DNA from: an uncultured Pelagibacteraceae bacterium
GTDB taxonomy: Bacteria > Pseudomonadota > Alphaproteobacteria > Pelagibacterales > Pelagibacteraceae
DNA length: 64,000 nucleotides
Reading direction: 5' to 3'
Assembly: GCA_902557775.1 (NCBI GenBank)
Contig: CACEBD010000001.1
Coordinates: 248,001-312,000, forward strand
Shown here: one piece after another, positions 13,099-53,964 of the stretch
Numbering within the stretch: the first letter of the stretch is position 1
How the letters are laid out: each line of letters opens with the position of its first letter
Translations under genes and position numbers: made by a program
The notes under the pieces: model-generated
The model's database searches: none
What the model was told of the DNA's origin: nothing
Seen by the model: the letters and a program-made list of their open reading frames with translations, nothing else

Positions 13099-13975
13099 TA
13101 GACTCTTGTTTAGCTTGAGCCTCAGCCTTTTTCAATAGAACATTTAGTAAAGTTCCAACTGTAGAGTTTAAATATTGTCTTTCAATTATTAAGTCTAAAC
13201 CGCCGTGTTCCTTTACATATTCTGCAGTTTGAAAGTTATCGGGAAGCGTTTCTCTAACAGTATCCTGAATCACTCTACGACCTGCAAAACCTATAACACT
13301 TTTCGGTTCCCCGATTAATATATCTCCTAACATTGCCCAAGAAGCAGTTACTCCACCAGTTGTTGGATTAGTTAATATTACTATAAAAGGAATATTTTTT
13401 TTCTTTAATTCATTTACGGCCAAAGCTGTTCTTGACATTTGCATTAAAGCTATAGAGCTCTCGTGCATTCTTTGGCCACCGGAACAGCTAAAAAAGATAT
13501 AAGGCATCTTATTCTCTATAGAATGTTGCGCGCCAGCAATAAAAGCTTCACCTGATGCAGCACCAAAAGATCCTCCTATGAATCTGAAATCTTGAGCTCC
13601 AACGATTACATCAATATTTTGAACTTTCCCTTTAGCTATAAGAACCGCATCATTCTGACCTGTTAATGCTCTTGCTGCCTTTAAACGATCTTTATACTTT
13701 TTTTTGTCTTCAAAATTCAATGGATCATCTTGGGGTAAAGGTGTTTCAATTAATTCAAATTCTTTGTTGTCAAAAAAGGTTTGGAATCTTTCTTTACAAG
13801 TAAGTTTATGATGCTCCCCACACTTAGGACAAACTTTTTGATTAGACTGCAAGTCTTCTTTGTAAATCAAATTTTTACAACTACATGTAGCCCAAAGATT
13901 TCCTTCTGCTTTAGAAGACTTTTTCTCAAATAGAGATTTTATTTTTGGCTTTATAAACTTTGTTATCCAATTCAT
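13061..13975 (-). CDS. accD: Acetyl-CoA carboxylase carboxyltransferase beta subunit AccD
   Basis: A 304-residue carboxyltransferase subunit. After a zinc ribbon (Cys31, Cys33, Cys49, Cys52) comes the crotonase-like domain with GGSFGAASGE and the acyl-CoA site PFI-ILT-PTTGGVTAS. The first zinc knuckle reads CSC, one residue shorter than the usual CxxC. AccA is encoded 40 kb away. Order trpB-trpA-accD-folC is common in alphaproteobacteria. It overlaps trpA by 4 bp. Confidence 0.93.
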   Translation of the reverse strand: MNWITKFIKPKIKSLFEKKSSKAEGNLWATCSCKNLIYKEDLQSNQKVCPKCGEHHKLTCKERFQTFFDNKEFELIETPLPQDDPLNFEDKKKYKDRLKAARALTGQNDAVLIAKGKVQNIDVIVGAQDFRFIGGSFGAASGEAFIAGAQHSIENKMPYIFFSCSGGQRMHESSIALMQMSRTALAVNELKKKNIPFIVILTNPTTGGVTASWAMLGDILIGEPKSVIGFAGRRVIQDTVRETLPDNFQTAEYVKEHGGLDLIIERQYLNSTVGTLLNVLLKKAEAQAKQESNVTIDQSLQTAS

Positions 13976-52857: not shown

Positions 52858-53964
52858 ATGAAAAATTATTTAGATTTTGAAAAAGAAATCAAAGCATTAG
52901 AACAAGAAGTTGATGGATTAAAAAGCCCTTTTGGCTCTGAAGGTATATCTGAAGTGGATACAAATAAAATAAAAAATACCCAAAAAGAGATCAATCAAAA
53001 ATTGGAGGAAATTTATTCAAATTTAAATAGTTGGCAAAAAACTCAAGTTGCTAGGCATGAGGATCGACCGAAGGCAAATTATTATATTAAAAAAATATTT
53101 TCTCAGTTTACTCTTCTTTCAGGTGATAGATATTTTGGTGATGATAAATCTGTAATTGCGGGATTTGGTTTAATAGAAAACAAATCAGTTTTAGTTATTG
53201 GTCAAGAAAAAGGAGAAGATTTAAATAGTAGAATTGAAAGAAATTTTGGAATGATGCGTCCAGAGGGGTATAGAAAGTGTATTAGACTAATGAAGCTTGC
53301 AGATAGATTTCAGATACCTGTAATTAGTTTTATAGATACACCAGGGGCATACCCTGGTTTAGGAGCAGAGCAAAGAGGTCAAGCATCTGCTATTGCAAAC
53401 TCTATAGAGTGTTGTATGTCATTAACAGTTCCTAATATTTCTGTAATTATAGGAGAAGGCGGATCTGGTGGAGCAATAGCTCTTGCTTCATCTAATAAAG
53501 TGATAATGTTAGAAAATTCAATTTACTCTGTTATATCTCCCGAAGGATGTGCATCAATACTCTGGCGTGATCCAAGTAAATCTTTGGAAGCAGCAGACGC
53601 TATGAAGCTAACTGCTAAAGATTTGTTGAAGTTGAAAATTATAGACGAGGTGATACCTGAGCCTTTAGGGGGGGCACACCGAGATCCAGATACAATTGCT
53701 TCGGATATCAAACATTCAATTATAAAAAATTTAAAAAGTTTTGAAAACTTTTCCAAAGATGAAATTTATGATCACAGAAAAGCAAAATTTCTTCAAATTG
53801 GAAGAGATCAAGGTTTCAGTAAAACAACAAATCTCGCAGATCAAAGCTTAAGTTATAAAGAATCAGCCATTAGAAAATTTAGAATTCACCTAGATAAAAA
53901 TAAATACATATATTTAGGAATTGGTCTTATAGCTATTACTAGCCTAATTGCACTGTTATTTTAG
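52858..53964 (+). CDS. accA: Acetyl-CoA carboxylase carboxyltransferase alpha subunit with C-terminal membrane segment
   Basis: A 368-residue AccA. The first 315 or so residues match the family: coiled N-terminal LEQEVD, ARHEDRPKANYYI, SFIDTPGAYPG, GEGGSGGAIALA and SPEGCASILWRD. An extra tail of about 50 residues ends in a hydrophobic stretch (YIYLGIGLIAITSLIALLF, residues 350-368) that would span the membrane. Usual AccA proteins stop near residue 320. This would tether the carboxyltransferase to the membrane. Confidence 0.92.
   Translation: MKNYLDFEKEIKALEQEVDGLKSPFGSEGISEVDTNKIKNTQKEINQKLEEIYSNLNSWQKTQVARHEDRPKANYYIKKIFSQFTLLSGDRYFGDDKSVIAGFGLIENKSVLVIGQEKGEDLNSRIERNFGMMRPEGYRKCIRLMKLADRFQIPVISFIDTPGAYPGLGAEQRGQASAIANSIECCMSLTVPNISVIIGEGGSGGAIALASSNKVIMLENSIYSVISPEGCASILWRDPSKSLEAADAMKLTAKDLLKLKIIDEVIPEPLGGAHRDPDTIASDIKHSIIKNLKSFENFSKDEIYDHRKAKFLQIGRDQGFSKTTNLADQSLSYKESAIRKFRIHLDKNKYIYLGIGLIAITSLIALLF

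Follow-up and report, generated by a model that had tools for sequence, protein, structure and literature searches.

Introduction

In plastids, the alpha subunit of the acetyl-CoA carboxylase (ACC) carboxyltransferase is brought to a membrane by other proteins. In Arabidopsis, the CTI (CARBOXYLTRANSFERASE INTERACTOR) proteins, each with a single transmembrane (TM) segment, attach to the C-terminal, non-catalytic part of alpha-CT; alpha-CT has no predicted TM segment of its own. This docking is light-dependent and attenuates fatty-acid flux (PMC7712654). A sequence-only reading of the DNA studied here had stated that plastid enzymes are held at membranes by separate proteins, and an alpha-CT that lacks a TM segment and is docked through CTI bears this out (PMC7712654). 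The same reading had described ACC as normally cytosolic in bacteria, a statement that needs a qualifier: in early stationary phase, E. coli AccA is bound by YhcB, an inner-membrane protein believed to sequester or inhibit it, and AccA is also degraded (PMC12977641). The same paper terms the matching of bacterial fatty-acid synthesis to membrane demand enigmatic (PMC12977641). As for tail anchors, TssL is reported as a bacterial C-tail-anchored protein inserted by YidC (PMC3426401). Our searches of the open-licence literature turned up no tail-anchored housekeeping metabolic enzyme.

Cells of SAR11 (Pelagibacterales) are among the most abundant in the ocean; they are very small and have limited regulation. 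Here we describe the AccA protein encoded in a 64,000-nucleotide stretch of contig CACEBD010000001.1 (the window). The DNA belongs to SAR11 (Pelagibacterales, Alphaproteobacteria) and comes from an assembly of 957,653 bases that is 82% complete. The AccA enzyme is known, and so are tail anchors as a device; what we regard as new is their union as an order-wide trait. No published record of the SAR11 AccA tail, and no fractionation of AccA in SAR11, was found among the papers that our searches of the open-licence literature listed.

Results

AccA carries 52 residues beyond its catalytic domain

The gene and its parts are the following (window coordinates).

52858..53964, + strand: accA, alpha subunit of the acetyl-CoA carboxylase carboxyltransferase, a single open frame of 368 aa and a stop codon
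52858..53805, + strand: canonical AccA carboxyltransferase domain, residues 1-316 (PF03255 to 315, NCBIfam to 316; GEGGSGGA motif present)
53806..53901, + strand: linker, residues 317-348 (32 residues), predicted disordered over 317-335, with a short basic helix at 337-347
53902..53961, + strand: predicted C-terminal transmembrane anchor, residues 349-368 (from insertion energy and the AlphaFold2 helix; enzyme side predicted cytosolic)
53962-53964, + strand: accA stop codon

The Pfam model ACCA (PF03255) matches residues 4-315 with 443.2 bits (cut-off 23), and the NCBIfam models PRK05724 (439.4 bits, cut-off 357) and TIGR00513 (390.2 bits, cut-off 319.3) cover residues 1/2-316. Since the family models end at residue 315-316, the last 52 of the 368 residues are extra; the solved structures of S. 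aureus and E. coli AccA likewise align only as far as residue 314-315. The extra segment, DQGFSKTTNLADQSLSYKESAIRKFRIHLDKNKYIYLGIGLIAITSLIALLF, passes from a polar linker through a basic stretch into a hydrophobic run that continues up to the stop codon. The sequence-only reading had noticed about 50 extra residues with a C-terminal hydrophobic helix, in agreement with the 52 residues and the helix at the stop codon found here. Its description of the tail was accurate, and its start at 53800, two codons inside the end of the AccA domain, was off by an immaterial amount. A weak match of the tail to Pfam Synaptobrevin (E 0.025, under the cut-off) was taken as chance.

An AlphaFold2 model was calculated from 34 genus-level sequences as a single chain with no membrane. 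It is mediocre overall (mean pLDDT 69, pTM 0.65). Residues 317-335 of the linker fall below pLDDT 50, while the tail helices 337-347 and 349-367 lie in blocks of pLDDT 77-88, the second at about 87-88. In a Foldseek search, the top matches of the model were the solved AccA chains 8uz2, 2f9i, 5kdr and 2f9y (8uz2_A, E 1.8e-27; 2f9i_A, E 1.2e-26), as expected of a carboxyltransferase fold.

The end of the tail is a predicted transmembrane helix

The window AccA has a single predicted TM helix, 20 residues long, at its very C-terminus and none elsewhere in the protein. On an insertion-energy scale checked against internal controls only, the tail scores -1.74 kcal/mol, against +4.26 for the best segment of the core. 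When 60 of the 130 distinct SAR11 tails described below were each shuffled 100 times, the shuffled sequences matched the real insertion energy in about 0.1% of cases, the highest figure for any tail being 1%. Across the 130 tails, the net charge of the 15 residues preceding the helix averages +2.65 (range 0 to 6), and on average 0.36 residues remain after the helix. A basic flank with almost nothing past the helix fits a positive-inside tail anchor. Both marks of a C-tail anchor, a lone predicted TM helix in the last 30 or so residues and a positive flank before it, are thus found in AccA.

The tail is conserved throughout the SAR11 sample

A search of relatives for AccA (E 0.001) gave a match in 54 of 61 genomes, and an order-wide search (E 1e-60) in 141 of 147, spanning 10 genera and two families. 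The C-termini were read in 157 SAR11 loci, made up of two overlapping sets of 77 and 80, which come from single-cell, metagenome and isolate assemblies. Every one of the 157 has a closed frame with a tail; the 130 distinct tails are 45-58 residues long. All 130 have an insertion energy below zero, with a median of -1.56; the values run from -4.72 up to about 0.00, the latter for the weakest tail, that of locus L139. A charged residue occurs in the central 15 positions of the helix in 2 of the 130 tails and within the last 17 residues in 7, always at one end of the stretch. In the remaining genomes of the order, the listed AccA open frames measure 362-406 residues, with the exception of a partial gene in genome G105, whose match still extends into the tail. 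The conservation and hydrophobicity of the tail in near relatives, on which the sequence-only reading had made its proposal depend, therefore hold: the tail is retained at all 157 loci, and membrane insertion is predicted for each of the 130 distinct tails. The predicted anchor is a fixed trait of SAR11 as sampled.

One SAR11 locus has a changed motif in its catalytic domain. In L087 (22-1125, - strand; genome G090) the oxyanion-hole motif reads GEGSGNSANA instead of GEGGSGGAIA, and PISPEDCAELL stands in place of VISPEGCASIL; the TM tail is intact. Genome G090 gave no other match to AccA at 1e-60.

AccA of the other Pseudomonadota sampled lacks the tail

Searches at the level of the class gave an AccA match in 267 of 289 genomes, at least 3 of them SAR11, and at the level of the phylum in 129 of 140, the window's own genome included. 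C-termini were read for 123 loci from Pseudomonadota outside SAR11, representing 118 distinct sequences; the class sample drew on the best of the 267 matches and on 80 of 115 others. Locus L270 was left out, as its match stops inside the gene at a contig end. None of the 118 distinct C-termini has a hydrophobic tail, the best stretch in the last 60 residues scoring +3.23, and 116 of them end 0-14 residues past the domain. Long open frames were picked deliberately, and in those read the surplus length lies upstream except in L109 and L232, whose longer tails (35 and 33 aa) are both non-hydrophobic. With no such tail elsewhere in the sample, the tail is SAR11-specific within it, and the predicted anchor is in this sample a derived trait of SAR11 that marks the order Pelagibacterales. 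It is probably old, because it is present in both sampled SAR11 families.

Some of the other C-termini and frames deserve mention in their own right. The 35-residue tail of L109 (genome G232, another lineage of the class) is strongly basic and perhaps provides an alternative route to membrane or nucleic acid. That of L232 (genome G543) is rich in Pro, Thr and Gln, with a short, possibly amphipathic stretch at its end. L265 and L266, from genomes of about 0.9 Mb (G246 and G365), have their AccA domain at the end of a frame of 581-584 residues, with some 310 residues before the match, a suspected AccD-AccA fusion.

Selection maintains the character of the tail

Tests of dN/dS and of drift were confined to 52-residue tails from loci whose AccA shares 70% identity or more with that of the window, other tails being left out. 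A set of 30 sequences, out of 78 full-length ones from the genus, gave dN/dS values for core, linker and helix of 0.024, 0.184 and 0.218, with synonymous distances near saturation in this wider set; 45 close pairs gave 0.038, 0.173 and 0.315. The tail thus stands at about 5-9 times the core (0.17-0.32 versus 0.024-0.038), and as it evolves faster than the core, conservation is limited to its general character.

Drift was simulated from the window's own tail with stop codons forbidden. An insertable helix survived in 53 of 810 runs taken to an equal DNA distance and in 141 of 810 taken to an equal number of residue changes, versus 81 of 81 real tails. Without the ban, 1532 of 1620 runs hit a stop codon. 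Hydrophobicity is kept while the letters diverge, and selection therefore acts on character, as a lipid anchor would predict. Judged by these codon comparisons and simulations, the tail is under purifying selection. A frameshift, a read-through or an artefact as the source of the tail was excluded by the single open frames at 157 loci together with the drift simulation.

Partner subunits and insertion machinery

The expected partner of AccA is encoded in the same window.

13127..13975, - strand: accD, carboxyltransferase beta subunit, expected AccA partner (TIGR00515, E 3.4e-92)

This AccD scores 307.2 bits, slightly under the TIGR00515 cut-off of 317.45, and its N-terminal ribbon shows the Cys pattern on inspection by eye. 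AccB lies on contig C4, where an adjoining frame is biotin-carboxylase-like (named AccC by eye). By-eye inspection of the translations of AccD, AccB and the biotin-carboxylase-like frame revealed no hydrophobic tail. Among the 65 long ORFs of the window, a lone C-terminal helix is found only in AccA, and 200 kb more of the genome contain one such ORF among 194, a CcmH-like exported protein (named by eye). With 1 of 65 window ORFs and 1 of 194 others, the tail as a genome-wide habit was rejected.

YidC-family proteins are found in 29 of 30 SAR11 genomes, the exception being the genome of the window, and FtsH in 28 of 30, the exceptions being the window's genome and G040. In the former, at 82% completeness, we found no YidC and no full FtsH; these absences are probably assembly gaps. 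The family of YhcB (PF06295), which we take to be the same protein as LapD, was detected in 0 of 41 SAR11 genomes, the E. coli control being positive.

Discussion

A proposed membrane-docked carboxyltransferase

From these sequences and models we strongly infer that SAR11 AccA is anchored in the membrane by its predicted tail helix and, with equal strength, that malonyl-CoA synthesis is sited at the membrane in SAR11. Put as a mechanism, SAR11 AccA is likely to be a C-tail-anchored inner-membrane protein, with the carboxyltransferase docked on the inner membrane within one chain. The catalytic domain would be ordinary and would partner with AccD. About 20 flexible linker residues and a short basic helix, together a tether some 30 residues long, would lead from it to one C-terminal TM helix; the enzyme would stay cytosolic and the helix would finish on the opposite side of the membrane. 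Since this helix is the last part to emerge from the ribosome, the tail would insert post-translationally, most likely through YidC. The carboxyltransferase is an alpha2-beta2 heterotetramer. It would carry two anchors, so that malonyl-CoA would be made against the inner membrane.

The benefit of such an anchor is harder to name. Malonyl-CoA is soluble and is next handled by the soluble FabD, which makes it hard to see a gain from channelling alone. With the enzyme resident at the membrane, the committed step in making fatty acids would be exposed to the state of the lipids or to FtsH, a membrane protease, and FtsH-linked turnover of AccA may be part of the control. By analogy with plants and E. 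coli, we suggest, at slightly less than even chances, that the benefit is membrane-linked regulatory control of malonyl-CoA supply. The broader idea that SAR11 has fused ACC docking into the enzyme, making the committed lipid step a permanent inner-membrane process that reads the membrane state directly, is put forward in the same tentative spirit.

Other readings of the tail were weighed against membrane anchoring. The hydrophobic tail might be a degradation signal that is not stably inserted and delivers AccA to a protease such as FtsH, the level of AccA then setting fatty-acid flux; the wide occurrence of FtsH (28 of 30 genomes) and the non-polar final residues of many tails would suit it. 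A degradation signal, however, needs no continuous insertable helix with a one-sided basic flank, as seen in 130 of 130 tails, and a far shorter stretch would presumably be enough. We consider this reading unlikely, and it may coexist with anchoring. Equally unlikely in our view is a docking peptide: the helix would pack on some other protein, of the membrane or of fatty-acid synthesis, in place of lipid or in addition to it. Plant docking does use the non-catalytic C-terminus of alpha-CT (PMC7712654), and the linker is well conserved between genera in family f2; yet in the helix hydrophobic residues swap freely, no invariant face is visible by eye and dN/dS is 0.22-0.32.

The tail might also have no membrane function, being either a neutral extension by read-through or a product of faulty assembly or gene calling. 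This would account for a tail that evolves faster than the core, and AT-rich genomes readily yield hydrophobic codons. Against it stand the 157 of 157 loci with one open frame each in single-cell, metagenome and isolate assemblies, the loss of the helix in drift simulations and the purifying selection on the tail, which together make it highly improbable.

If membrane anchoring of SAR11 AccA is correct, docking of alpha-CT/AccA would have arisen at least three times, through CTI in plants, YhcB in E. coli and a built-in tail in SAR11. Models of SAR11 lipid metabolism would change, with malonyl-CoA made at the membrane surface, and should anchoring of AccA alter the activity or turnover of ACC, what is observed in plants and E. 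coli would hold as a general principle.

Comparison with known systems

SAR11 AccA resembles canonical bacterial AccA (PDB 2f9y, 2f9i, 8uz2) in fold and motifs over residues 1-316 and differs from it in that the canonical protein ends where the SAR11 tail starts. With TssL-type tail-anchored proteins it would share a lone C-terminal TM helix and a protein bulk in the cytosol; TssL has a single C-terminal TM helix, with its bulk cytosolic. The B. subtilis Asp23-family protein YqhY is comparable as an added factor restraining ACC, but it is a separate protein at the cell poles, with no AccA anchor described (PMC5437119).

Closer is YhcB (ZapG/LapD) of E. coli, where an inner-membrane protein meets AccA in connection with control of fatty-acid flux (PMC12977641, PMC12652820). 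Unlike the SAR11 tail, YhcB acts in trans, in early stationary phase only, and is thought to be inhibitory (PMC12977641). The SAR11 tail would do in cis the job of CTI in plants and probably that of YhcB in E. coli. In the plastid system, too, the alpha subunit is brought to a membrane through its non-catalytic C-terminal region at the first step of fatty-acid synthesis (PMC7712654). Plant alpha-CT relies for this on a separate anchor protein and has no TM segment, whereas SAR11 AccA has its own predicted TM helix, an anchor that would be covalent and presumably permanent.
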